A stretch of DNA of 41,813 nt from an uncultured bacterium (lineage in GTDB: Bacteria > Bacillota_I > Bacilli_A > RFN20 > CAG-826): NCBI GenBank assembly GCA_949283025.1, contig CASDRB010000015.1, forward strand, positions 1-41,813. The letters run 5' to 3'. The notes under the pieces were generated by a model. That model ran no database searches and was not told where the DNA came from. It worked only from the letters and a program-made list of their open reading frames with translations. This document shows positions 4,848 to 40,051 of the stretch, in pieces. How positions within the stretch are numbered: the stretch's first letter is position 1; every line of letters begins with the position of its first letter. Position numbers and translations under genes: made by a program.

Positions 4848-7112
4848 TTACAATGATTGAGTAATCTTGATAGTCGCAGATAATTCGTTTAACGATATGA
4901 TTTCAAAACTAAATCCTAAATCTAATCCACTATTTAATTTTCCAATATTGGGGAACGATGAAGAATATTCACTCATCGAAAATGTATCGCCTTGTTTGAA
5001 TAAACAATCATTAGATAAAATTTTCTCCATCTTTATATCGTTTGCTTTGTTATTTCTAATCAATGCCAACAAATCATAATTATAATCGCTAGTAAAAATG
5101 GCAACATACCCTTCATCAGCACTACTTCCATAAGTGGTATTAGACATCGATAAAGCAAAGCCATAAGGCGAACTATTTAAATCAAATTCGTTGTAATATT
5201 TGCTACCATCAAAATACAATTGATTACCGCTGACATACGTTCCTCTCATTCTAGCATCAACATGCCATAAGCGAATACCGACATCACTTGGGCCTTGTGG
5301 ATATGCATTTTGATATTTATATAGTGAATCAAATTCATTTAATCCCGTTGGCGAATACAATTCTAAAATTAGATATTCATCAAAAGGTGAGCCGATAAAA
5401 TCAGGCGACAAAACAATTAAATCACCTGTTTCTTGGAATCGGTTGATAGTTATAATGCTATTTGAAGTGGGAGCATATGGTTCAACCCAACCTAAAGCCA
5501 TCTTAGAAAACGGATCATGCCCACCAACATTGTAATCTTGCATTGAAAATCCACCGGCCGGTTGATTGCCATAATAACTATAATCATAATAGTCATCAAG
5601 ACCTAAAACATGGCCCATCTCATGAATGTATGTATGAGTATCTATAGTGCAATGCGATGTGTCTTCATACATAAAATCATACGATGCCCAAAAGAAAGTA
5701 TTTGGGCCTGGGTTATCAATATCTTTTAATTCCTTGTTTTGAACCCAAAAACAATATGCCCATAAATTATCATTTCCATTGCCGCCGCCATTAGAATAAT
5801 TGCTCGCCGCATAAATCAAAATCAATGCATCCAAATATCCATCTGAATTGGTATCAAATGATTTGTAAACATCTAGACTGACTTGATTTTTATACCAATT
5901 AGCCACTTCTTTAACAAGTTCGACTGTTTGGTCGCCATTTATGCTTGATGAATATGTTGATGTATACCAATCAGTGACGACACCTTCAAGATTTAATTTG
6001 CCGTATGAATCTTCTTGATAATATGTTTTTACAGAATGCCAACCGGTTTCTTCTTTGCTTCCTAAATAAGCAGTTTCAATATCTTGTCTAACTTGTTGTT
6101 TTTTAGAAGTGCTCAAGTATTCACTAGAATCGGTTAACCAAATTGGCACGATTAAAGCTTTTGGTGAACCAACGGATGGCATGGCTGGTGTATTATAAAC
6201 ACAATTTTGACTATAATCTTGATATGTATATAAAGGCGATTGCTTTTCTATTGTTTCATCATAAACATTTAATTCACCATCTGAATATTTGATGACATTT
6301 CCATCTTTTTGATATGAAATTTCAAACAAATATAATCCTGATAAACTAAATGGATTATTAAAATCATATTCGTCAGCATTGGAATCTAAAAAATATGAAA
6401 AATACCAGCCATTTGCACCTGTTTGATCATAATTTAGCTTTGTTTGAACAATATTATTAGATTTAAGAAAAACTTCAAAATCGCTTGTTGGATTAATAAT
6501 TTCACCTACTTTATACTCTGATTTAATTGAATTAACCTCTAAAGAATAATTAGGATTTTCAATGGCACTATCATAGCAAGAATAATTTAAAACTATTTCA
6601 TTGATTGCGGCATAATTGCTACCTGTTTTTATCGCGACATATTTATATTGTGCGTATGAAGAAATATCTAATAATACATCGTTGGCGATGACTAGTTCGT
6701 TTGTAGTTGGGTTTTCGTTTTCACCAAAATACATCATCAATGAAGTAGAAGACGAATATTTAATACGAATTGATTGCAATCCAGTGATAGCAAAATTATT
6801 TACGCCATCGGCTTGAGTATTATAAATCAATCCTTGTGATTCTTTTAATTGCAAGTTATTTTTGTTTTCTAGTGCGTTTTGAAATTCAAATTCAGTATAA
6901 CGAAATGTGTGTCTTGTTGATTTAATATATCCGTCATTAACATTATTTAAAAATGACCAATTATTAGTAGTTTCAGCATTCATTACAATACTATAATTAA
7001 TGTCAGCGTTTTCTTTTTTATAAGTGTTTTGTTGATAAATAATGGATGCAAAGCCAATTACCAAGCTAGCCAACAAAAAACAAGACAAGGCTAATAACTT
7101 TTTATTTTTCAT
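4848..7112 (-). CDS. M6-like zinc metalloprotease, membrane-anchored or secreted
   Basis: A 754-residue secreted protease. Residues about 5-27 form a signal sequence or anchor without a clear lipobox. A beta-rich binding domain lies at about 60-175 and an Ig-like domain of about 95 residues at about 180-285. The catalytic domain holds the zinc motif HEMGHVLGLDD near residue 495, which is HExxHxxGxxD, followed by a Met-containing turn (GGFSMQDYN) as in the M6/immune-inhibitor-A-like group. An Asp/Asn-rich stretch (about 420, DTNSDGYLD) looks like a calcium loop. A GAGGA ribosome binding site precedes the ATG. Its paralogue lies directly upstream, separated by a terminator, so each has its own transcript. 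It probably breaks down proteins outside the cell; the substrate is not known. Confidence 0.85.
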   Translation of the reverse strand: MKNKKLLALSCFLLASLVIGFASIIYQQNTYKKENADINYSIVMNAETTNNWSFLNNVNDGYIKSTRHTFRYTEFEFQNALENKNNLQLKESQGLIYNTQADGVNNFAITGLQSIRIKYSSSTSLMMYFGENENPTTNELVIANDVLLDISSYAQYKYVAIKTGSNYAAINEIVLNYSCYDSAIENPNYSLEVNSIKSEYKVGEIINPTSDFEVFLKSNNIVQTKLNYDQTGANGWYFSYFLDSNADEYDFNNPFSLSGLYLFEISYQKDGNVIKYSDGELNVYDETIEKQSPLYTYQDYSQNCVYNTPAMPSVGSPKALIVPIWLTDSSEYLSTSKKQQVRQDIETAYLGSKEETGWHSVKTYYQEDSYGKLNLEGVVTDWYTSTYSSSINGDQTVELVKEVANWYKNQVSLDVYKSFDTNSDGYLDALILIYAASNYSNGGGNGNDNLWAYCFWVQNKELKDIDNPGPNTFFWASYDFMYEDTSHCTIDTHTYIHEMGHVLGLDDYYDYSYYGNQPAGGFSMQDYNVGGHDPFSKMALGWVEPYAPTSNSIITINRFQETGDLIVLSPDFIGSPFDEYLILELYSPTGLNEFDSLYKYQNAYPQGPSDVGIRLWHVDARMRGTYVSGNQLYFDGSKYYNEFDLNSSPYGFALSMSNTTYGSSADEGYVAIFTSDYNYDLLALIRNNKANDIKMEKILSNDCLFKQGDTFSMSEYSSSFPNIGKLNSGLDLGFSFEIISLNELSATIKITQSL

Positions 7113-7205: not shown

Positions 7206-9299
7206 TTATATTTTAGTAATATTCAATGTAGCTGATGTGGCATTTAACGATGTAATTTCAAAACTAAATCCTAAATCTAGTCCACTATTGAGTTTTCCTT
7301 TATTTGCAAAACAAGAAGAGAACTCACTCATTGAAAAGGTGTCCCCCTCTTTCCAAAGAGAATTAGCATCAAAACTATTTTTATGCAAAGTTGTCTTTTC
7401 ATTATGACGAAGCAATGTCAACAAATTATAATTTCTAAAAGCAGAAATAGGCGTAGCATAATCATTTGCGCTTCCACCAGCTTTATATTGAGTGTTGGAC
7501 ATAGCCAATTGTACTCCCAAATAATTTGATGGCAAATCGTTAGGATTAGTTCTTAAATCATCAGCAGCATAACCGCGAATTGTTGTCGGTAACAATCTTG
7601 CGTCGACATGCCAAATGCGAATTCCACTGGTGCTAGGACCTTGTGGATATCCATTGCTATATTGATATTTAGAATCAAATTCATTTAATCCAGTTGGGGT
7701 GTATAAATCAATAACTAAATACTCATCAAAAGGGGAGTTATGGAATTCTGGTGTTAAAACAATGACATCACCGGTTTCGGCAAAACTATTAATTGTTAAA
7801 ACGCAACTTTCACTAACTACATATGGTTCGACCCAACCAAATGCCATCTTAGAAAATGGATCATGATCTCCAACATTGTAATCTTGCATAATAAAGCCAC
7901 CAGATGGGATGTCAACATTATTGTAATCATAATAATCTTCAAGACCTAAAACGTGCCCCATTTCATGAATATATGTATGAGCATCTATATTGCAATGCGA
8001 TGTGTCTTCATACATAAAATCATACGATGCCCAAAAGAAAGTATTTGGCCCAGGATTAGCAACGCTTTTTAAATTATAATCTTGAACCCAGTAACAATAA
8101 GCCCATAAATTATCATTTCCATTTCCACCACCATTAGAGTAATTATTAGCAGCATATATTAAAATTAAGGCGTCTAAATAACCATCCTCATCAGTATCAA
8201 AAGATTTATAAGTTGTGCTGCTAACTTGGCGTTTATACCAATTAGCCACTTCTTTAACAAGTTCGACTGTTTGGTCGCCATTTATGCTTGATGAATATGT
8301 TGATGTATACCAATCAGTGACGACACCATCTAAATTTAATTTTTCGTATGAGGCTTCTTGGAAATAGGTTTTCACACTCCTCCATCCAGTATCTTGATTG
8401 CTACCTAAGTAGGCTGTTTCAATATCTTGTTTTATTTGATTTTTTTGTGTAGAAGAAACATATTTATTTGAATCAGTGAGCCAAACTGGCACAATCAATG
8501 CTTTTGGTGAACCAACGGATGGCATCGAATCGATTTCGTAAACCGAATGATTTGTATAATCAACATAATTAGCAATTAGACTGGTCTTTTCTAATTCTTT
8601 TTCTCCAACATAAAAACTGACGCTTTTGACTACTTTACGATAAGAAACATCGAAAGTGTAAAGGCCTTCATCTAAAGGTTTATCAAACGACCAGCCAGAC
8701 ATAGTAATGGCATATCCATTGACGCCGTCTTGATTATAATCAATTGTTTCTGTGCCGCCATAATTGTTCCAAGTTGCTTTAACAGTTATTAAATCTTTTG
8801 TAAAACTATCTCCAACATTAAAATTGCTTCTTTTTAAAGTGACGCTAATAGAATCAGGAGCTAAATCAGTGCCGCTTCCCTTTAATAATTTAAATTGACC
8901 TTCGTAGAATAAATCATTATATTTAGAGCATTTGATGATAAATTGATAATTGCCAGCTACAGTTAATGGCGATGTTAAATTATCAACACTATTATTGTTT
9001 GAATCGACTAATTTAGAAAAATACCAGCCATCTTTCATGTTTTGATCATAAGATAAGCTATACGGTTGTTCGTTTCCAATTATGATGCTCACATCAAAAT
9101 CTTTACCGGTATTTATTTTTTCACCATACAAATAAGATGTTTTGTTTTGAACAACTTTCATGCTCACATCATTATTGCTGCTCGTTATAGTTCCTGTATT
9201 TTTATTAGTTGAACTAGACGACAGATAAGACAAACTACACGCCGCCAACATTGGAATAAACAATAATATTAATAACTTTTTGCTGATCATAAAAACCAT
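7206..9299 (-). CDS. M6-like zinc metalloprotease lipoprotein (paralogue)
   Basis: A 697-residue lipoprotein: lipobox MLAAC with the Cys at residue 21, then a Ser-rich linker. Two copies of the Ig-like domain seen in its neighbour (about 48-140 and 148-235) precede the catalytic domain, whose zinc motif HEMGHVLGLED lies near residue 446. It lacks the extra N-terminal beta domain of its paralogue but has two Ig-like copies against one. The start is uncertain: AGGAGG sits only 2 bases before the ATG at 9299 and 11 bases before a second in-frame ATG at 9290; both keep the signal peptide. Several stretches are identical at the DNA level to the neighbour, pointing to recent exchange. Confidence 0.87.
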   Translation of the reverse strand: MVFMISKKLLILLFIPMLAACSLSYLSSSSTNKNTGTITSSNNDVSMKVVQNKTSYLYGEKINTGKDFDVSIIIGNEQPYSLSYDQNMKDGWYFSKLVDSNNNSVDNLTSPLTVAGNYQFIIKCSKYNDLFYEGQFKLLKGSGTDLAPDSISVTLKRSNFNVGDSFTKDLITVKATWNNYGGTETIDYNQDGVNGYAITMSGWSFDKPLDEGLYTFDVSYRKVVKSVSFYVGEKELEKTSLIANYVDYTNHSVYEIDSMPSVGSPKALIVPVWLTDSNKYVSSTQKNQIKQDIETAYLGSNQDTGWRSVKTYFQEASYEKLNLDGVVTDWYTSTYSSSINGDQTVELVKEVANWYKRQVSSTTYKSFDTDEDGYLDALILIYAANNYSNGGGNGNDNLWAYCYWVQDYNLKSVANPGPNTFFWASYDFMYEDTSHCNIDAHTYIHEMGHVLGLEDYYDYNNVDIPSGGFIMQDYNVGDHDPFSKMAFGWVEPYVVSESCVLTINSFAETGDVIVLTPEFHNSPFDEYLVIDLYTPTGLNEFDSKYQYSNGYPQGPSTSGIRIWHVDARLLPTTIRGYAADDLRTNPNDLPSNYLGVQLAMSNTQYKAGGSANDYATPISAFRNYNLLTLLRHNEKTTLHKNSFDANSLWKEGDTFSMSEFSSCFANKGKLNSGLDLGFSFEITSLNATSATLNITKI

Positions 9300-15393: not shown

Positions 15394-17127
15394 TTATTTG
15401 ATTTTATATACGATAAATGACCAAGGTTTTAAAATATTATTTTCATATTTATTAGATAATACAATCTTGCCGTTGCATAAATATGCGGTCTCTTTATCAG
15501 CATTGTTTAATACCACTTCATAAGCTTCATCTTGTAAATAACGTTTAATAATAATCAAGTTATTTTCGTTTAAACTAATATCGATTTCGCCACTTTTAAA
15601 AGGTTGTAATTTTCTTAATCTGACAATATCTTTAAATAATTTATGGTATGGTGATTTAAACTCCACGCTATCCCATTCCATGCCTTTACGATTAGCAGGG
15701 TCTCCACCGCCTTTCATAAATATTTCATTACCATAATAAATCATAGGATAACCTAAAAATGAGATTAATGTTAATATAGCGTTTAAATATAAATCTTTGT
15801 TGTCATTAACGTATGTATAAAATCTAGGTGTATCATGGCTATCTAATAAATTGAGCATCATTTTATTGTTCCCATCTTTATATCTAGTCAATAACCAATT
15901 CAGTCGGTCTACAAATTGTTGATTGTTAACAATTTTATGAATGTAGTGATCCCAACATATAGTATAAAATCCATAATTCATGACGCTTTCAAACTCGTCA
16001 TTTTTTAAAAACTCATATGCATTATCCCAATTTTCACCAATTAAAATGACATTAGGATCGACCTTTTTAATTTCGCGTTTAAAATGAGTCCAAAAATCAT
16101 GGCTTACTTCGTTAGCGACGTCTAATCTATATCCATCTACACTATATTTTTCTAAATAATATTTCCCTACTTCGGTAAAATATTTTTGTACTTCAGGATT
16201 AGAGGAATTTAATTTAGGCATTCCTGGAACGGACGCAAAAGAATAATAGTTTAAACCATCTACCGAAAGTGGTTTATCTAAAAAAGAATAAAAATTATAA
16301 TATTTGGAGTTTTTGCCATTTTTTAATACATCTTGAAAAAATGGGTGATTTTTAGATGTGTGATTAAAAACTAAATCTAAGACGATTTTTAATCCCTTAT
16401 CATGAGCTAAGTCAACTAAAGTTTTTAATGTTTTTTCATTGCCAAACATTTTATCGACGCCAAAATAATCTTTTACATCGTATTTATGATTGGATTCGCT
16501 TGGATAAATTGGTGTCATATAAATAACGTCAATGCCCAAATCTTTAATATAATCTAATTTATCGATGATTCCTTGCAAATCACCGCCGATAAAAACATCT
16601 TGATGTTTGCTTGGATCTTCGCTTTTTAATTTAATGGTGTCCCAAGGCCTATTAATGTAACTTTTATCTTTTTGTTTGTCTCCTAGGTTAAAACGTTCAG
16701 GAAAAATTTGATAAAAAACATTACCTTGAAATTTCTTGTTTTCATAAACAATATCGGCCTCGTTGATAAACGGGACTCTAAAACAAGTTAAATGAGCATA
16801 ATTAAAGTCATATGTTTCACTGATATCCATCTCATAATAAAAATAAGACTTGCCGCTTTTGCATGTAATTTTAAAAACATAGGAAAGCGATGGTAATTCA
16901 GTTTCAAGAATCGTCTCATAATAATCAAAATTAGCGTCGCTGCGACGCAAATTCATCTTTTGATAAATGCGGTCCTTATAATAAAAATGTGTAATGTTCC
17001 AAACACACTCAATTTTCTCGATATCTGGATCAGCTTTTTGAGTTCTAAAAATAATTTTTACAGCATTTTTAGAAATAGGAAAGCAATATTGTGAATCAGA
17101 TGTGTGATATAAAGCATATTTATTCAT
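15394..17127 (-). CDS. cytosolic GH13 neopullulanase/cyclomaltodextrinase-type enzyme
   Basis: A 577-residue glycoside hydrolase without signal peptide. Residues about 1-125 look like the CBM34-type N-terminal domain of this subgroup. The catalytic barrel shows FYQIFPERF, LDLVFNHTS (region I), GYRLDVANE with the nucleophile Asp near 334, LIGENW with the acid/base Glu near 364, and LLDSHDTPR with the third acid near 430. This matches GH13 subfamily 20: cyclomaltodextrinase, neopullulanase or maltogenic amylase. It would cleave imported maltodextrins to maltose and glucose. A GGGGGA ribosome binding site precedes the ATG. It is outside the main starch operon, separated by a plus-strand gene, but serves the same pathway. 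Confidence 0.88.
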   Translation of the reverse strand: MNKYALYHTSDSQYCFPISKNAVKIIFRTQKADPDIEKIECVWNITHFYYKDRIYQKMNLRRSDANFDYYETILETELPSLSYVFKITCKSGKSYFYYEMDISETYDFNYAHLTCFRVPFINEADIVYENKKFQGNVFYQIFPERFNLGDKQKDKSYINRPWDTIKLKSEDPSKHQDVFIGGDLQGIIDKLDYIKDLGIDVIYMTPIYPSESNHKYDVKDYFGVDKMFGNEKTLKTLVDLAHDKGLKIVLDLVFNHTSKNHPFFQDVLKNGKNSKYYNFYSFLDKPLSVDGLNYYSFASVPGMPKLNSSNPEVQKYFTEVGKYYLEKYSVDGYRLDVANEVSHDFWTHFKREIKKVDPNVILIGENWDNAYEFLKNDEFESVMNYGFYTICWDHYIHKIVNNQQFVDRLNWLLTRYKDGNNKMMLNLLDSHDTPRFYTYVNDNKDLYLNAILTLISFLGYPMIYYGNEIFMKGGGDPANRKGMEWDSVEFKSPYHKLFKDIVRLRKLQPFKSGEIDISLNENNLIIIKRYLQDEAYEVVLNNADKETAYLCNGKIVLSNKYENNILKPWSFIVYKIK

Positions 17128-32525: not shown

Positions 32526-32597
32526 TAACATCTTTAAATAATTTATTAATAAAAACGGACAAAACTTGTCCTCACACTTAAGATATTATTTGATTAT

Positions 32598-32930
32598 TAT
32601 AATGATAGACATTGCAACCCGGTTTAGACATTGTTGCATGATGGCCGGGGCTTTGACCAAAAAAGAAGATAAAGTGGGATGCTGCTTTATTGACAAGACC
32701 TATTTGGTATCCGGTGTTGAATCACCGCTTTGGTTAAAGGCGCAATACGCTCTTCGATGTAAATAGTTGTCCGACCAGGCACGATAAGAGGCTCTGCAGC
32801 GATGCATCCCACGTGAAGTTAAGAAATTGAGAACTTCTTGACTCCGTTCTCACAAGAAGTGTTGGCTTTGATGGTGAGTAATCATCTATAACTGGTTTGA
32901 CAAGCACGAGTAGGAGAACAGCCTTTTTGA
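32598..32930 (+). ncRNA. candidate large structured RNA
   Basis: A stretch without a credible gene, visibly richer in G and C than its surroundings. A TATAAT box (32598-32603) could start it near 32610. Long complementary segments: TGCAAC 32613-32618 with GTTGCA 32633-32638, interlocked with CCGG 32619-32622 and CCGG 32645-32648 (pseudoknot order); CTTTGACCA 32651-32659 with TGGTTAAAG 32731-32739; GTGGGATGC 32674-32682 with GCATCCCAC 32804-32812; GGTG/CACC hairpin 32714-32727; GAAGTT with AACTTC 32815-32837; GTTCTC 32846-32851 with GAGAAC 32914-32919, then TTTTT. It lacks the hallmarks I know of RNase P RNA, tmRNA and SRP RNA. Large Firmicutes RNA classes such as raiA are candidates. Strand is inferred. 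Confidence 0.55.
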
Positions 32931-32935
32931 GCATA

Positions 32936-32951
32936 TCAATATATATATTGA
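32936..32951. repeat. 16-bp perfect AT palindrome between the two RNA candidates
   Basis: TCAATATA followed by its exact inverse complement. It lies directly after the T run ending the first candidate RNA and before the second. It could be a weak terminator or a protein site; low complexity makes chance possible. Confidence 0.4.
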
Positions 32952-32954
32952 CCT

Positions 32955-33075
32955 TAAAATGCTGACGCTCTTTGAAAGTTGAAGGATAATTAAGTTCCTT
33001 CCATGGTTCGGCTCAAACGCCCATTCTAGAAGCTATGAGGTCGCTACTCATAGTTCAGCCTAGCGTGCATGTGTA
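32955..33075 (+). ncRNA. second candidate structured RNA or 3' domain of the first
   Basis: ATGC-tg-ACGCT (32959-32969) pairs with AGCGT-GCAT (33062-33070), closing a domain of about 112 bases. Inside lie GAAGGA/TCCTTC (32981-32986 with 32996-33001), GGCT/AGCC (33010-33013 with 33057-33060) and, nested in the latter, CTATGAG/CTCATAG (33033-33039 with 33047-33053). The nesting is fully compatible, giving a branched fold. A -10-like TAAAAT (32955-32960) is at its left edge. The tail of the XRE regulator ORF runs antisense through its last 30 bases. The strand is uncertain, since most pairs also form on the minus strand. Confidence 0.45.
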
Positions 33076-33361
33076 TGAAAAACAAATTAGAGTAAGTATT
33101 GTATGGTGAAGGCCGGCAATGTCTTTTTTTTATTTTCAACAAAAAACATCCATTAAGGATGTCGATGGCCGCTACTTTAAAAATAGCGGCGAATGTATTG
33201 ACTACGTCAATATTAGATGTCCCGTTGTTTTCAATGCGTCGAATATGTCTGACACTATATCCAACAAGATCGGCTAAATCATCTTGGGTTAGATGGCACT
33301 TTAGCCGCAGATTTTTGATTGATTTGCCAATCATGTGCGAATCGATAAAATAATTACCCAT
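33044..33361 (-). CDS. XRE-family (Cro/CI-type) regulator with doubtful tail
   Basis: Residues about 11-70 form a Cro/CI helix-turn-helix: IGKSIKNLRLKCHLTQDDLADLVGYS, then VRHIRRIENN and the closing FKVAAIDIL (quoted in pieces). It is a DNA-binding repressor or activator, probably autoregulatory. GGAGG seven bases before ATG fixes the start. The domain ends exactly where an intrinsic-terminator-like hairpin begins (33141-33162, minus strand); the remaining 33 codons, Cys/His/Arg-rich and unlike the family, lie beyond it and overlap a candidate RNA. Either the message ends without a stop codon, or the ORF tail is an accident. Context: first gene of an accessory region. Confidence 0.75.
   Translation of the reverse strand: MGNYFIDSHMIGKSIKNLRLKCHLTQDDLADLVGYSVRHIRRIENNGTSNIDVVNTFAAIFKVAAIDILNGCFLLKIKKRHCRPSPYNTYSNLFFIHMHARLNYE
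33141..33162 (-). terminator. terminator-like hairpin inside the regulator ORF
   Basis: On the minus strand ACATCC and GGATGT (33157-33162 with 33146-33151) pair around a 5-base loop and are followed by six Ts. It overlaps codons just after the HTH domain. The stem is only 6 bp, so termination may be partial. Confidence 0.5.
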
Positions 33362-33519: not shown

Positions 33520-34044
33520 TTATAAACATGTATTTTTAAATTTATTGAAAGCGTCATTATATATTTTTAACGCATCTAATTTTTCTGGATATATGCACAT
33601 ATAGACTTGCTTTAATGATTTTGGTTGATAACCACATATCACCTTAGCAGCAATTTCTGCAGCTTCGTTTAAAGGGTAAGCAAATACACCAGTTGAAATG
33701 GATGGAAACGCTGTCGTTTTTAGCCCTAATTCATCAGCAATTTTAAGACAATTTAAATAACAATTAGCGAGCGTTTTGGCTGGTGTTGGATCAGAATAAT
33801 ATCTAGGGCCTACAGTATGAATAATATATTTATTATCGAGTCGATACGCTTTTGTTAATTTAGCTTCGCCAGGTCGACAGCCATTTAATGTTTTACATTC
33901 TTTTAATAAATCTGGTCCTGCTGCTTTATGAATCGCCCCATCAACTCCCCCACCACCTAATAAAGATTCATTGGCGGCATTGACGATTGCGTCTGCCATC
34001 TTACCAATTTTTGTAATGTCCATTGTTATTGCTTTTACGTTCAT
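33520..34044 (-). CDS. macrodomain protein (ADP-ribose/O-acetyl-ADP-ribose hydrolase type)
   Basis: A 174-residue single macrodomain. Visible are DITKI, the adenine/ribose-binding IVNAANESLLGGGGVDGAIHKAAG region (residues 20-43, quoted by key parts), PGEAKLTKAY, IHTVGP and the phosphate loop SISTGVFAYP. This pattern fits MacroD/YmdB-type hydrolases that remove ADP-ribose from proteins or deacetylate O-acetyl-ADP-ribose. GAGGA lies before the ATG. It starts 27 bases after the stop of the Fic gene on the same strand, so the two are probably co-transcribed. Confidence 0.9.
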   Translation of the reverse strand: MNVKAITMDITKIGKMADAIVNAANESLLGGGGVDGAIHKAAGPDLLKECKTLNGCRPGEAKLTKAYRLDNKYIIHTVGPRYYSDPTPAKTLANCYLNCLKIADELGLKTTAFPSISTGVFAYPLNEAAEIAAKVICGYQPKSLKQVYMCIYPEKLDALKIYNDAFNKFKNTCL

Positions 34045-34071
34045 GGTCTTTTCCTCTATTTATCCTTTTTA

Positions 34072-35058
34072 TCAACATTTATAATATTTTTGATTTTTGC
34101 TACTGGGTTTATTTGGAATCGTCATTTTGACTAAACCATTTTTTAATGCTGGATTAAGATAACTAGCTCTCAAGGTTTCCTTTGATTTAATGCCAAGCCT
34201 TGTCATTATTTCATTAGCCGACAAGGGAATTTCAAATTCCATTATTTCTAATAATTTATTTACTTGCTCAGAAATGTTTTTTGATTCTTTTTTAACAATA
34301 ATTAGCATTTCATCCAATGTCTCATCAATCATTTTCAACATGAATTCAATAAAGCAATTTGAATTACCAATTTTGTTGGATTTTTCAATAGCAGAATAAT
34401 AATCTTTTTGATATTTATGGATTTGAGATTCAATTGGAACATATTCAAATAATGGATCCCATTTTGCCAACAATACATTTTGCCATAGTCTAGCTACTCT
34501 GCCGTTTCCATCATTAAATGGATGAATAAACACTAATTCATAATGAAAGATACACGATTTGATTAATAATGGTGTTTGTTTATCATTTTTGAGCCACTCG
34601 AATAAGTTGTTCATTAGCATAGGAACCATCTTTTCAGAAGGCGCGACATGAATGACGCGACCACTTTCATCCATCACGCCTTCGCCATGATTTCTATATG
34701 TTCCAGATTCATTATCTATTAGAAAAGTAATAATAGCGTGCGCTTTTAATAAATCTTTTTCTTTAAAACCATCAAATTCTTTAATCATCTCATATGCTTT
34801 ATATGCATTTTTTGTTTCTTGAATTTCTTTTTTTGGACCAATAACTATTTTTCCATCAATAACGTCTTTTATTTGATTAAGCGATAATGAATTAGCCTCA
34901 ATAGCTAAAGATGAGTAGATCGATTTAATTTTATTATTCCTTCTTAAAAATGGCATTCTTTTCAAAGAATGATATGAGGAAAATTGCTCTATTTTTTGAC
35001 TAATAGATATAGATCTAACAAGTATTTCATTTGTAATTGAAAAAGGTGGTTTATACAT
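34072..35058 (-). CDS. Fic-domain protein (AMP-transferase type)
   Basis: A 328-residue protein. An N-terminal inhibitory-helix-like motif SSLAIEAN (49-56, Glu at 54) precedes the Fic core HPFNDGNGR (179-187), with His179 as catalytic base and the loop for ATP. The C-terminal 70 residues look like a winged helix (EIMTRLGIKSKETLRASYL). Fic proteins usually transfer AMP from ATP to target Ser/Thr/Tyr; the inhibitory motif suggests it is kept off until needed. The stop is TGA, one of the few in the window and evidence for the standard code. A TATAAT box lies 17 bases upstream of the ATG, behind three copies of an 11-base repeat. Operon with the macrodomain gene. Confidence 0.9.
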   Translation of the reverse strand: MYKPPFSITNEILVRSISISQKIEQFSSYHSLKRMPFLRRNNKIKSIYSSLAIEANSLSLNQIKDVIDGKIVIGPKKEIQETKNAYKAYEMIKEFDGFKEKDLLKAHAIITFLIDNESGTYRNHGEGVMDESGRVIHVAPSEKMVPMLMNNLFEWLKNDKQTPLLIKSCIFHYELVFIHPFNDGNGRVARLWQNVLLAKWDPLFEYVPIESQIHKYQKDYYSAIEKSNKIGNSNCFIEFMLKMIDETLDEMLIIVKKESKNISEQVNKLLEIMEFEIPLSANEIMTRLGIKSKETLRASYLNPALKNGLVKMTIPNKPSSKNQKYYKC

Positions 35059-35108
35059 AATTTTTCTTCAATAATATTATATTAAATACGCTTAATTTTT
35101 GGAATATT

Positions 35109-35142
35109 ATCTTGCTTAAATCTTGCTTAATATCTTGCTTAA
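35109..35142 (-). repeat. three direct 11-base repeats upstream of the Fic gene
   Basis: TTAAGCAAGAT (minus strand) occurs exactly at 35109-35119, 35120-35130 and 35132-35142, i.e. every 11-12 bases, about one helical turn. A degenerate fourth copy lies at about 35087-35096, between the repeats and the TATAAT at 35076-35081. Position and phasing suggest cooperative binding of a regulator at the Fic promoter. Confidence 0.65.
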
Positions 35143-35174
35143 TTTTTTTAAATTTGCTCATTGGTTTAATCTTT

Positions 35175-35186
35175 TTGTCTAGACAA
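35175..35186. promoter_or_regulatory. 12-bp palindrome TTGTCTAGACAA
   Basis: A perfect dyad between the Fic gene's repeat block and the 3' end of the next gene. It could be an operator for the Fic operon or a gene-end hairpin. No partner copy was noticed. Confidence 0.4.
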
Positions 35187-35205
35187 TAATTATTTAATTA
35201 CGAAA

Positions 35206-35700
35206 TTAAACTATTTTTTTAACTTCGATTAAATCAAGAATATGGTTAAGAAGATTTTCAGGATATGTGATGACATTGTATTCTTTGCCATAAATAGTAA
35301 GCTTGTGTTCAATAAAAATTCCCGCTTCTTCACCTTTTTGGCTAATTTGTTTTTGCCCATTTACATATACAATATAGCCATTTTCTATCAGCCAATTCAT
35401 CACTCCGTTATTAGACATTTTTTTCATATGATCATCTGCATTAAATTCATTTATTCTATTTATAAAATTAGTCATATTCATCGGACTATTAACTACACCA
35501 ATTTTATTTTTTAAAACAAATGGTTTTCTTTTAATTTTTTTCTCATCAATATTTTCTGATATAAAATCTTTGATTGCATATAATTTTCTTACAAATTGAA
35601 CATCATTAAAAATTGAGTTATCTTCAATTTCCTCTCCACTCATAGGGTTAAAGCCTTTGGCTAAACAATCAAGAAAATAAATCGCTTCTTTCTTATTCAT
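35206..35700 (-). CDS. hypothetical cytosolic protein
   Basis: A 164-residue soluble protein, no signal or membrane segment. Its opening LDCLAKGFNPMSGEEIEDNS followed by VRKLYAI resembles a short N-terminal motif (GxNPxTGE, then acidic-S) found in many uncharacterised Firmicutes proteins. A helix-turn-helix-like stretch may lie at 95-125 (MKKMSNNGVMNWLIENGYI). GAGGA precedes the ATG and TATAAT lies 19 bases before that. It lies between the ATPase and Fic genes but about 150 bases from the latter with separate repeats, so it is probably its own unit. Function unknown. Confidence 0.65.
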   Translation of the reverse strand: MNKKEAIYFLDCLAKGFNPMSGEEIEDNSIFNDVQFVRKLYAIKDFISENIDEKKIKRKPFVLKNKIGVVNSPMNMTNFINRINEFNADDHMKKMSNNGVMNWLIENGYIVYVNGQKQISQKGEEAGIFIEHKLTIYGKEYNVITYPENLLNHILDLIEVKKIV

Positions 35701-35800
35701 ACTAATTATCCTCGTTTTAATTATATCATTTTTATGCTTGATATTTATTTAAAACAATTGCAGAGAATTTAAAAGCATCACAACTATTAAATAAAAAGAT

Positions 35801-37087
35801 TTAATCTTTTAAACATCCGATAGGGATAACGATGACACCACTATTGAGCGTTAACGCTACTTCTTGAGTTCCAGAAATAATAATCATTGCCTTAGGCAAA
35901 CGATATGGAACATCATGTGTTTCATTATAAGTTTTAATCAATTCTTTGAATTTTAATAAGTTAGATTCAGCTTCCTTGATTTTGCTCGTGCCAGTTTTAA
36001 TTTCAATTAAAGCATAATCGCCGTTTTCTAATTGATATACTGCATCAATTTCCAAACCGTAGTCATCGTGATAGTGCATAACTTGAGCATTGTGTTTGTA
36101 TGAAAAAGTTAACAAATCTCTAAAGACAACATTTTCAAAAATGTGCCCAAATAAATCAAAATCATTGTAGAAATATTCGGGTCCAACACCTAGTGCAGCG
36201 ACAGCAATAGAAGGATCAACAAAAATTCTTTTCTTTGATCCTCTTATTGCAGTTTTTGATCTGATTTGTGGACACCATGCATCGATATCTTTAATTACAT
36301 ACAATCTTTCAAGGGCATCAACATATTTGTAATATGTTTTTTCGGTAATGTCAAAATTTGACTTAACGTCATTATATAATTGTTTTGTCTTTACAGTAGT
36401 TGCTATATTTCTCGCATAAGACCAAAGTATAGTTCTCGTTAATTTTTCGCTCCGCTTAACACCATCAATAGAAGATATATCTTTTTTGCATATTTGATTG
36501 AAATAATCTTTTGGAATATCCAAACTTCTTTCCTTGTTTTCCAGCAATACTGCTCTAGGGAATCCTCCTCTGCAAGATGCAAATATTAAATCCTTTATTT
36601 TTAAATTAGATTTAATTCCAGCAAAATTTGTTTGCCCGTTTTCGATTAAATTTAGCAATGAAATCATTCCATTAGATTCTCCACTTTCGTACAATGACAT
36701 TGTATTCATTTCGATTGTAGAAATTCTGCCTGTTCCGGTATGTGGAGTATCGATTTTTTTTGAAGTTGATCCTGTAAGATAATATTCACCGACATTTTCC
36801 GTGTCATCGCATGCTTTTCTAATTACACCCCAAATTTTCGGTGCATCTTGCCATTCGTCAAACAGGATTGGTTTCTTATTTTCCAAAAGAAGAGATGGCG
36901 AGTTTTCTACCGTTAATAAATAACCATCTCTTTTTTCTTCGTCTTGAAACTCAATAATTGTAGAGCATCTTTCTGATGCTGTCCTAGTTTTACCACACCC
37001 TTTTGGTCCAACAATTAAGATAGCATCAAAAGAACGCGAACGTTTATCTAAAAGATCATCGATTATTCTTTTTTTGTATCGTTTCAT
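35801..37087 (-). CDS. AAA ATPase of the DUF4143 (AAA_14) family
   Basis: A 428-residue protein with Walker A GPKGCGKT (27-34), a Walker B-like ILFDEWQD, and a sensor region YYLTGSTS. The C-terminal domain contains LEIDAVYQLENG and ALIEIKTG, the D...E-x-K arrangement of a PD-(D/E)XK-like nuclease fold, typical of DUF4143 proteins. These occur widely in gut and archaeal genomes; their role is unsettled. AAGGAAA lies before the ATG and TATAAT is at 37105-37110. Direct repeats upstream may be its operator. No partner gene is obvious. Confidence 0.85.
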   Translation of the reverse strand: MKRYKKRIIDDLLDKRSRSFDAILIVGPKGCGKTRTASERCSTIIEFQDEEKRDGYLLTVENSPSLLLENKKPILFDEWQDAPKIWGVIRKACDDTENVGEYYLTGSTSKKIDTPHTGTGRISTIEMNTMSLYESGESNGMISLLNLIENGQTNFAGIKSNLKIKDLIFASCRGGFPRAVLLENKERSLDIPKDYFNQICKKDISSIDGVKRSEKLTRTILWSYARNIATTVKTKQLYNDVKSNFDITEKTYYKYVDALERLYVIKDIDAWCPQIRSKTAIRGSKKRIFVDPSIAVAALGVGPEYFYNDFDLFGHIFENVVFRDLLTFSYKHNAQVMHYHDDYGLEIDAVYQLENGDYALIEIKTGTSKIKEAESNLLKFKELIKTYNETHDVPYRLPKAMIIISGTQEVALTLNSGVIVIPIGCLKD

Positions 37088-37140
37088 AAAATTTCCTTGA
37101 TGCTATTATAAAAAATACAGATATAGATGTCAATTATTAT

Positions 37141-37197
37141 TTCACTATTTTCTGGCATTTTAATTCACTATTTTCTGGCATTTTAATTCACTATTTT
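37141..37197. repeat. 23-bp tandem repeat upstream of the DUF4143 ATPase gene
   Basis: Two exact 23-base copies (37141-37163 and 37164-37186) and the first 11 bases of a third (37187-37197). They begin about 31 bases upstream of the ATPase gene's -10 box, so they are well placed to bind a regulator, possibly the ATPase product itself. A 23-base spacing is about two helical turns. Confidence 0.7.
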
Positions 37198-37271
37198 GGT
37201 AAAGTATTTCAATATAATGCCAAACACATTATATCTACTATTTTTTAATTATTGTTTATGGATATATTGCA

Positions 37272-38657
37272 TTAATTTTCTTCAAGTATTTTTTTGATAA
37301 AATTCTTGTTAAACCAAAAACTTTGTTTTGTATATGAAACAATGCCTGTTTCTTTGTCGGGAATTGGTAGGCTGTAATGATCAGTCTCGCGCCTAGCGTG
37401 AGGTCTTACATGACATACTCCATTTGCGTTTCTATTTTCTTTAGGAAATTTATCTTTAACTTTGCCCTTTTTATCAAAGTAAAATGCTGTTCCGTTTCTA
37501 ACCATTTCGGCGCATTCTTCATGCATTTTTTTAATATCGCCATCCACTATTGAGTTTGGGGCGTTCCAAAAATGAATTCTATCAAATGAAATTACACCAT
37601 TGATTTCCTTAAAAACAAATATCATTAATTTCAAATCAACAAAATCGTCACGAATCACTGATTCATCCCAAGGTGTATTAATTAATTCTTCAAATTCAAA
37701 AGATTTAAATGGCATTGATTCAGTTGGCTTTCCATTTTTATCAATAGTTATTGTTCTAAAAATAATTCCCGCTACTTCCATTTCTGTTGTGGCTTTGTTG
37801 CGTCCTGATATTCCCAACATTTTTTGGCATAACATAAAATTAAGTTGTTTTGCTTTAGAACTAATGCCAAACCTTCTACATAATTGATTCTGTGTTAGCC
37901 CATGATAAACAGACATTTTTTCTTTATAGATTTCTTCAAGCGGATTTTTCATCCATTCTTCTTCACTAATTAAAGGTGAATATGGAGCAAGATTATGAAC
38001 TAAATTTCTATAAAGATAGGTCATAAATGACTGTTTAAAACTATACGCTCTTGGCTTAGCTTTAATTGAAGAATTATATTGTTCAGTCAATACTTTGCTA
38101 TCAGCACCTTTTGTACAAGCAGCCAAAAATTCAGTATCAGATTCTGATATCTCGTGTGCTTTACCGTTAACAACCTTGTTATGAATAATATTCCAGTCTC
38201 TTTCAATCACCTTGAATTGAAGCGACTTTTCAAACTCAAATAAATCGTAGTCAGTTATTTCGAAATTTGCTGGATGAACGCCTAATGAATATAGATAGAA
38301 CCAAATCAACAATCTTCTATTTTTCTTATAGAAAGAACTTGTTTTAAAAGTCGCTAATGCTTCTGCTTTATAGTTAATCATGTTAAGCACTAGCCTTTCT
38401 TTAGAGGATGTGGAACCATCTTGGTTCTTTTTTACAGGAGTTACTTTTAATTCAATACCTGCATCAATAAAATCAGGCTTGTCATCACTATTAGCTTTGT
38501 ATCCAAAAATATGCTCTTCAACAAAACCGCCTAATCCACCTTTATTTCTACCTGTGTAAGTCTCATCTAATCCAAAATCACCAAAGGTTTTGTGCATTGC
38601 TTTTTTGGTAATTTCTAATATTTCATTTTCACTAAGATGTCTATTTTTATCATCCAT
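37272..38657 (-). CDS. Sau3AI-family type II restriction endonuclease (predicted GATC)
   Basis: A 461-residue enzyme. The N-terminal half has the MutH/Sau3AI fold: GGLGGFVEEHIFG (acidic residue near 47-48), then D62-FIDAGI-E69-L-K71, which keeps the D-x6-E-x-K spacing of MutH, and KERLVLNMINY. The C-terminal half (about 240-461) would be the second, non-catalytic MutH-like domain of Sau3AI, whose total length (about 490) is similar. Members cut GATC. TATAAT lies 11 bases before the ATG, without a ribosome binding site. Divergent from the methyltransferase gene, 140 bases apart. Confidence 0.9.
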   Translation of the reverse strand: MDDKNRHLSENEILEITKKAMHKTFGDFGLDETYTGRNKGGLGGFVEEHIFGYKANSDDKPDFIDAGIELKVTPVKKNQDGSTSSKERLVLNMINYKAEALATFKTSSFYKKNRRLLIWFYLYSLGVHPANFEITDYDLFEFEKSLQFKVIERDWNIIHNKVVNGKAHEISESDTEFLAACTKGADSKVLTEQYNSSIKAKPRAYSFKQSFMTYLYRNLVHNLAPYSPLISEEEWMKNPLEEIYKEKMSVYHGLTQNQLCRRFGISSKAKQLNFMLCQKMLGISGRNKATTEMEVAGIIFRTITIDKNGKPTESMPFKSFEFEELINTPWDESVIRDDFVDLKLMIFVFKEINGVISFDRIHFWNAPNSIVDGDIKKMHEECAEMVRNGTAFYFDKKGKVKDKFPKENRNANGVCHVRPHARRETDHYSLPIPDKETGIVSYTKQSFWFNKNFIKKILEEN

Positions 38658-38702
38658 AATTAAATTTAATTATATCAAACAGCTATAAAAATTAATAGTG
38701 TG

Positions 38703-38712
38703 CGTTATAACG
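38703..38712. promoter_or_regulatory. palindrome in the divergent R-M control region
   Basis: CGTTATAACG, a perfect 10-bp dyad lying between the divergent nuclease and methyltransferase genes, 35-40 bases upstream of the nuclease -10 box and 33 bases upstream of the methyltransferase -35 box. It may be an operator coordinating the two genes; no controller gene is seen in the cassette. Confidence 0.4.
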
Positions 38713-38744
38713 TAATTAAAATAAATTATCTAAAGAATTTATTT

Positions 38745-38777
38745 GATCTTTACATTTTGTGCTTAATCGTATATTAT
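38745..38777 (+). promoter_or_regulatory. methyltransferase promoter with GATC abutting the -35 box
   Basis: TTTACA (38749-38754), a 17-base spacer, TATTAT (38772-38777). A GATC (38745-38748), the predicted target of the encoded enzymes, lies directly against the -35 box. The leader before ATG is only about 14 bases and lacks a ribosome binding site. Confidence 0.6.
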
Positions 38778-38797
38778 CTATATAGTAAACTAAATTT

Positions 38798-40051
38798 ATG
38801 AAAAAGACAGTAATTGAACTATTCGCAGGTGTCGGTGGATTCCGCGTCGGGCTAAATAATATCACTAAAATAGATAAAAATGGACACGCTATCGAAAAAG
38901 GTCCATTTACTTTTGTGTGGGCAAATCAATGGGAACCATCCACTAAAGCTCAACACGCCTTTGATTGTTACAATTTAAGATTCCCATCCGCTACTGAAAA
39001 TTCTAATGTTGACATTTCTAAAGTCGATAAATCAACAATCCCAGACCACACACTATTAACAGGCGGTTTTCCTTGTCAGGATTATTCAGTTGCTCATACT
39101 TTAAGCAAAGCCCATGGAATTGAAGGGAAAAAGGGTGTTCTTTGGTGGCAAATAAATGACATCTTAAAAGCGAAAAAGCCTCCGTTTGTCTTACTTGAAA
39201 ACGTTGATAGGCTTGTAAAATCTCCTGCAAAACAAAGAGGCAGAGATTTTGGTATAATGCTTCGTTGCTTATCTGACCAAGGTTATGCTATGGAGTGGAG
39301 AATCATTAACGCTGCTGAGTATGGTCATCCACAAAGAAGACGTAGAATCTTCATTTTTGCCTACCATAAATCAACAAAATACTACGAAATGATGAAGGAC
39401 TCATCACCTTTTGAAATCATTTCTTCAAAAGGCATTTTTGCAAAAGAATTTCCAATTGAAGAATTTGTATCTAAATCAATTAAAGAATACGACTTTAAAA
39501 AGGGCTACAAAGATTTAGTTGCTGTTTCAGATAAATTCCATGCAGCTTTTGAAAATGCTGGCTATATGATTGGTGATAAAGTCTTTACAGTTAAAACAAA
39601 ACCGATTCTTGCTAAACCAACAACATTGAAAAAGATTGTCGAAAAGGATGGTGTTGATGTTCACTATTTCCTAAGCGAATCACGTCGTAAAAAATATGAA
39701 TACCTCCGTGGTTCAAAAAAAATACCGAGAAAAGATAAAAACGGTCATGAATATATATACTCTGAAGGTCCAATGAGCCCGTATGATGAATTATCGCTCC
39801 CAGCTAGGACTATGCTAACTTCTGAAGGAACAACAAATAGAAGTACACATATTATCATGGATCCTAAAGAAAATAAACTTAGAATACTAACTCCGGTTGA
39901 ATGTGAAAGAATCAACCAATTTCCTGATAATTGGACTGATTCAGGTATGCCTGAAAAAAGACGTTATTTCATGATGGGCAATGCCTTAGTGTGTGGAATT
40001 ATTAAAAAACTCGGTGTGGAAATTGAAGCTATTATAAGCGAAGAGCCCTAG
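38798..40051 (+). CDS. DNA (cytosine-5)-methyltransferase, partner of the Sau3AI-type nuclease
   Basis: A 417-residue C5 methyltransferase: motif I IELFAGVGGF (6-15), catalytic loop GGFPCQDYS with Cys93, motif VI ENV (134-136), motif VIII QRRRR (179-183), and the terminal motifs NQFPDNW and MMGNALVCGII (motif X). The variable target region spans about 200-330. With the divergent Sau3AI-like nuclease it forms a type II restriction-modification system predicted to act on GATC, methylating its cytosine. Protection of the host should therefore be needed before the nuclease appears. Confidence 0.95.
   Translation: MKKTVIELFAGVGGFRVGLNNITKIDKNGHAIEKGPFTFVWANQWEPSTKAQHAFDCYNLRFPSATENSNVDISKVDKSTIPDHTLLTGGFPCQDYSVAHTLSKAHGIEGKKGVLWWQINDILKAKKPPFVLLENVDRLVKSPAKQRGRDFGIMLRCLSDQGYAMEWRIINAAEYGHPQRRRRIFIFAYHKSTKYYEMMKDSSPFEIISSKGIFAKEFPIEEFVSKSIKEYDFKKGYKDLVAVSDKFHAAFENAGYMIGDKVFTVKTKPILAKPTTLKKIVEKDGVDVHYFLSESRRKKYEYLRGSKKIPRKDKNGHEYIYSEGPMSPYDELSLPARTMLTSEGTTNRSTHIIMDPKENKLRILTPVECERINQFPDNWTDSGMPEKRRYFMMGNALVCGIIKKLGVEIEAIISEEP

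Follow-up and report, generated by a model that had tools for sequence, protein, structure and literature searches.

What lies at positions 32598–32930 of this contig, a stretch that had been marked from its sequence as a candidate large structured non-coding RNA, and what might control it? We analysed the entire 41 813 nt of the contig (the window) and compared it with related genomes, most of which are metagenome bins.

Identity, extent and fold of the RNA

When searched against all Rfam families with cmscan, the window contained a single family above cut-off, ROOL RNA (RF03087), which matched positions 32594–33134 of the plus strand with 204.3 bits (gathering threshold 99.1; E 7.8e-45) and over the whole model (positions 1–574 of 574). 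At a relaxed threshold the extra matches in the window were weak and far under their respective cut-offs, and GOLLD was matched at neither the normal nor the relaxed threshold. Judged by this match, the region 32598–32930 is part of a complete ROOL RNA, a known class of large bacterial RNA, of which the source genome (1.2 Mb, 97% complete) carries one copy. The original prediction had suggested a raiA-type RNA or an unnamed class; the former was ruled out by ROOL being the only family above threshold, and the latter by the match to ROOL itself. The predicted extent of 333 nt (32598–32930) proved to be only the 5′ 60% of a feature of about 540 nt; left out were the 3′ domain, the T8 tract and the 3′ half of P1, the closing helix. 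The transcript, likely spanning about 32608 to 33130 (approximately 520 nt), would start at a promoter belonging to ROOL, run rightward and stop at the RNA's own T tract. The features of the RNA are:

32594–33134, plus strand: ROOL RNA gene (RF03087), from the full-length cmscan match and covariation in nine relatives
32598–32603, plus strand: TATAAT, likely −10 box of the ROOL promoter, from the sequence and from −10-like hexamers equally placed in relatives
32608–32615, plus strand: 5′ half (GACATTGC) of P1, the closing helix, pairing with 33116–33123 in the Rfam alignment and the consensus fold
32828–32834, plus strand: UGAGAAC loop, complementary to GUUCUCA at 32846–32852 and assigned by position to the intermolecular bridge B4
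32916–32970, plus strand: variable A+U-rich segment, a probable disordered linker, differing in length and sequence among nine relatives
33116–33131, plus strand: 3′ strand of P1 (GCAATGTC, 33116–33123) followed by the T8 tract (TTTTTTTT), the likely ROOL terminator

The perfect TATAAT that had been noted is present. A good −35 box could not be recognised at this promoter. The G+C content was, as predicted, above that of the neighbouring DNA (0.44 in 32598–32930 and 0.41 over the ROOL span, compared with 0.25–0.29 in the 2-kb flanks and 0.32 in the window). The description of the stretch as free of genes held for its interior, which contains just short open reading frames (66 amino acids on each strand), but not for the 3′ end of the RNA, which is overlapped by a minus-strand regulator gene (33044–33361, see below).

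Covariation was assessed in an alignment of nine ROOLs, all from the Bacilli family to which the source genome belongs, the structure tested being that of Rfam plus two crossing pairs. Changes on both sides occurred in 66 of the 148 tested pairs, compared with 38.5 in shuffles, and 77.6% of the cells were paired as opposed to 67.7% in shuffles and 37–43% when slid. A de novo consensus fold contained 128 pairs, 65 of them with compensation, and the folding energy (−154.7 kcal/mol, z −2.8) was better than that of shuffles. Some long-range helices (helices 10 and 26) misfit the Rfam register; in their place the de novo fold has helices that are shifted to an adjacent register and show compensation. 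Two of the checks put forward with the original prediction, an Rfam search and a test for compensatory changes in relatives, returned ROOL above its curated cut-off and ROOL in nine relatives with strong covariation; together with the consensus fold they bear out a large structured non-coding RNA, and on each point that could have told against it (a protein match, conservation and covariation) the outcome favoured an RNA.

The individual helices that had been proposed fared differently. The 9-bp helix 32651–32659/32731–32739 contains the ROOL helix 32651–32656/32734–32739, in which 97% of the cells are paired in the nine sequences and two pairs are altered on both sides. The pairing around 32613–32648, described as pseudoknot-ordered, is real, but corresponds in the Rfam alignment to the first ROOL hairpin (32618–32622/32645–32649, enclosing 32629–32633/32639–32643). 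For the helix 32674–32682/32804–32812, the core of five pairs, in which GGGAU faces AUCCC or GUCCC, is found in 9/9 sequences, while the outer pairs are mostly variable; as the core hardly varies, covariation is neutral on this helix.

Published ROOLs form octamers (env-120, E. faecalis and Firmicutes CAG:227 by cryo-EM) or hexamers (Ligilactobacillus salivarius) via kissing loops, with a disordered linker inside the hollow cage, which has been conjectured to hold an inner loop or another molecule under stress. By family membership, the window ROOL should fold into the ROOL monomer, copies of which would self-assemble into such a cage. The UCGCU hairpin loop, assigned to L18 by position, is invariant, and the complementarity of UGAGAAC and GUUCUCA retains a four-pair core in 9/9 sequences, including one swap of A-U to G-C (L052), a level that is statistically weak alone given that it was reached by 40 of 500 shuffles. 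The segment 32916–32970 was likened to the cage linker because its length and sequence vary.

A palindrome and an XRE gene linked to the RNA

Two elements flank the RNA, and the second of them contains a third:

32557–32575, plus strand: conserved palindrome GGACAAAACTTGTCCTCAC, a putative operator, the sole exact copy in the genome, and present at corresponding positions before ROOL in relatives
33044–33361, minus strand: XRE/HTH_3 regulator gene, convergent to ROOL, with a PF01381 match and homologues adjoining ROOL in relatives
33145–33163, minus strand: intrinsic-terminator hairpin within the XRE frame (D-I-L-N-G codons), from a terminator scan and kept in nine loci

The XRE protein matches PF01381 (HTH_3) over residues 15–54 with 34.8 bits (gathering threshold 23.0) and shows a weak PADLOC match to control proteins. 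Its frame overlaps ROOL by 91 nt, the conserved domain ending near residue 74. The gene adjoins ROOL in 10/10 family loci with enough sequence, usually in convergent orientation, examples being the bins L017/L002 from horse gut and L018 from the rumen, and three further loci with both elements were reached via the promoter palindrome. Its position differs in two genomes: in G014 it is found 2.2 kb past ROOL, separated from it by a TIR gene and a second gene, and in G046 it precedes ROOL in the same orientation, although a similar palindrome remains at the ROOL promoter.

A profile built from six XREs and searched in 42 family genomes matched 11 of the 12 that contain ROOL and none of the 30 others (Fisher 3e-9), these 30 all being without the palindrome and only part of them having been searched for ROOL itself, and the ROOLs of G166, G058 and G046 having been located via their XRE. 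The one ROOL genome missed was G024, whose contig stops inside ROOL. Across 117 genomes of the order, the same profile gave five matches outside the family, each with a full ROOL adjoining (5/5). As an exception, one XRE in G079 had no ROOL in its retrieved locus; the second XRE of G177 sits at a contig end.

The palindrome, of the form GAGGACA-N5-TGTCCTCAC or a variant, is centred approximately 46 bp before the likely ROOL start. In the ROOL loci of relatives it usually ends about 18–22 bp before the −10-like hexamer, again with no good −35 box, being further away from the RNA in G019 and G024. The exact pattern GGACA-N6-GTCCTCAC occurred in 10 of 224 family genomes, and a reversed control pattern matched in no genome. 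In the 24 genomes that were searched for the palindrome as well as for ROOL, the two coincided (4/4 and 0/20), and the palindrome was present in all five of the other-family loci, once with a mismatch. Nine of the 11 exact sites lie directly before ROOL. Of the other two, the G024 site, 219 bp upstream of that of ROOL, precedes a candidate small RNA, and the one on contig 175 of G046 has no ROOL near it.

In G024 (L004, 1053–1200), a second palindrome copy is followed by the candidate small RNA, which has its own terminator and a sub-threshold match to DUF3800-XI (24.5 bits). Behind the ROOL-less palindrome of G046 (L050/L068, 104–122) come repeats rich in G+C and a PF06541 gene, a gene of this kind being present in the L004 locus as well.

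Based on these linkages, we consider it probable (approximately 0.65) that this is a chromosomal ROOL module with a palindromic operator and a dedicated XRE, which most likely binds the palindrome and thereby switches ROOL transcription. The module would consist of ROOL with its operator-bearing promoter plus XRE, to which one or two cargo genes are added in some loci. Activation of ROOL seems slightly likelier than repression, because of the distance at which the site is centred before the start and the lack of a good −35 box. The link between XRE, palindrome and ROOL could also reflect shared ancestry of the module instead of regulation.

Alternatively, the palindrome might be an RNA hairpin or terminator and not an operator, with XRE controlling something else. 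Similar palindromes followed by T's are plausible terminators elsewhere in these genomes, and a simple scan called the window palindrome a weak minus-strand terminator. However, it lies between divergent genes in the window, with no gene ending there, so that it is not needed as a terminator; it is followed by a conserved TCAC and not by T's; and its distance from the ROOL promoter is constant in most loci. We thus regard this explanation as unlikely.

The hairpin inside the XRE frame is followed by T's and falls at the last conserved codons (D-I-L-N-G). It was also seen in L060, L061, L062, L063, L064, L065, L081, L082 and L124. Across loci its 3′ arm shifts by at most 2 bases, and it stays in place while the protein end varies (CF, VSF or DVF); in 8/9 loci the frame reaches the T tract without a stop codon. 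The tail of the G166 sequence was left out of this evidence. If termination occurs at the T tract, the XRE message would be stop-less, and tmRNA would deal with its product. A bolder proposal is that throughout the order ROOL cages stand under a dedicated, co-inherited XRE acting at the palindromic operator, with the level of this regulator set by tmRNA rescue of its stop-less message, such that cages are switched by translation or phage stress; we put this forward as a speculation that is quite improbable as a whole.

Genomic setting of the module

In the literature, ROOL is found in phages, prophages and non-prophage regions and near tRNAs. The window contains no tRNA and no recognised phage gene. 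Upstream of ROOL are genes for a sugar ABC transporter and amylase-like proteins, together with one that resembles gamma-glutamylcyclotransferase genes and is divergent from ROOL. Beyond XRE (33520–40051) are macro-domain, Fic and AAA/DUF4143 genes and a type II restriction-modification pair (a MutH-like nuclease and a cytosine methyltransferase), and an IS30-like transposase gene lies at the contig end (40745–41710, minus strand). Elsewhere on the minus strand, two adjacent and closely similar genes for secreted metalloprotease-like proteins (4848–7112 and 7206–9299; HEMGHVLGL motif) are probably a tandem duplication. Cargo between ROOL and XRE was observed at L063 9871–11973, L060 10305–10580, L062 about 16600–16730 and L082 2033–2389, and comprises a TIR/ThsB-like gene (G014) and small proteins without known family, two of which look alike (L060, L082).

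Could ROOL and XRE be functionless today, left behind by decayed prophages in which XRE served as the phage repressor? A short XRE protein, as at this locus, is typical of a phage repressor. The frequent occurrence of ROOL in phages and prophages would fit such an origin, as would its patchy distribution (1/5 genus genomes and 4/24 family genomes). Yet no structural, packaging or lysis family was present among the 25 PHROG families listed for 88 neighbouring proteins from 12 loci, and the RNA and its regulator are intact and covarying in many genomes and differing neighbourhoods. Phage and plasmid records contained no close relative of the RNA by DNA similarity, motif scans of viral contigs gave no matches, and no relatives of the XRE were found in phage records, plasmids or viral contigs. 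A 15-base ROOL motif occurred in 23 stretches, none of which carried the 5′ ROOL signature by a simple check. A search for the empty insertion site in genus relatives matched the flanks just to unrelated pieces. A phage remnant therefore appears doubtful; judging by the gene content of these loci, we favour the view that ROOL, in this order of gut Bacilli, is part of a small chromosomal module in which neither phage genes nor tRNAs are recognisable.

The cage might instead act together with neighbouring TIR, Fic, HEPN, AbiE or restriction genes as an anti-phage or stress defence unit. The TIR gene between ROOL and XRE in G014, the TIR-NB-ARC, AbiE and Fic genes nearby in G166, HEPN in G152 and G058, and the type II restriction pair, Fic and macro-domain genes of the window are all in keeping with this idea, such genes being frequent neighbours of ROOL. 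Control stretches hold defence genes too, however, making the enrichment suggestive only, and the neighbours of several modules (G019, G177, G079) are ordinary; a defence role of this kind seems to us a distant prospect beside an operator-controlled chromosomal ROOL.

Comparison with known systems

Phage repressors and the controller proteins of restriction systems are examples of small XRE switches, in which a short XRE is combined with a palindrome near the −35 position. The window module is alike in both respects, but its target would be a structural RNA and the promoter of the XRE gene itself has no copy of the palindrome. GOLLD RNA, which is large, phage-associated and forms cages, is similar to the window ROOL in belonging to a large cage-type RNA class, whereas sequence and fold are unrelated.

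One earlier case of a regulator next to ROOL is published: in L. salivarius, the HTH gene LSL_1884 of pMP118 lies directly downstream of ROOL, and Cousin et al. (2017, PMC5643018) suggested that its product could influence how strongly the RNA is expressed or how stable it is. A systematic linkage of ROOL and XRE, or the palindrome, was not found in the literature searched, which was mostly outside subscription journals. The L. salivarius RNA is non-essential, very stable and equal in abundance to 16S rRNA; the mutants described in strain UCC118 lack either ROOL alone or ROOL plus LSL_1884. We confirmed the pMP118 locus (ROOL with 130 bits and a short HTH gene adjoining). LSL_1884 has a hairpin and T tract at its D-I-L codons, as in the window XRE; in contrast to the window, this ROOL is plasmid-borne and shares its strand with the HTH gene. 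The two proteins are not detectably of the same family, their similarity not being significant, and the GGACA-N-TGTCC palindrome was not seen just upstream of the L. salivarius ROOL. Upstream of this ROOL, TTTATGCAAATAAA and TTTATTTTGCATAAA form a long inverted repeat (about 4370–4430 of L124, pMP118) that may be bound by the HTH protein of this locus.

The window RNA resembles the ROOL family (RF03087) in its full-length match, the same covarying helices, the conserved loops and the variable linker. It differs in being chromosomal, with no recognised phage genes or tRNAs and with a linked XRE gene and palindrome. The module shows ROOL as a chromosomal unit without recognisable phage around it. 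In the one bacterium measured, ROOL is among the most abundant RNAs, and its cages are larger than the ribosome. With a regulator and a control site tied to ROOL in several families, the timing of cage production would become directly testable, and what the regulator responds to would reveal when cages are needed.
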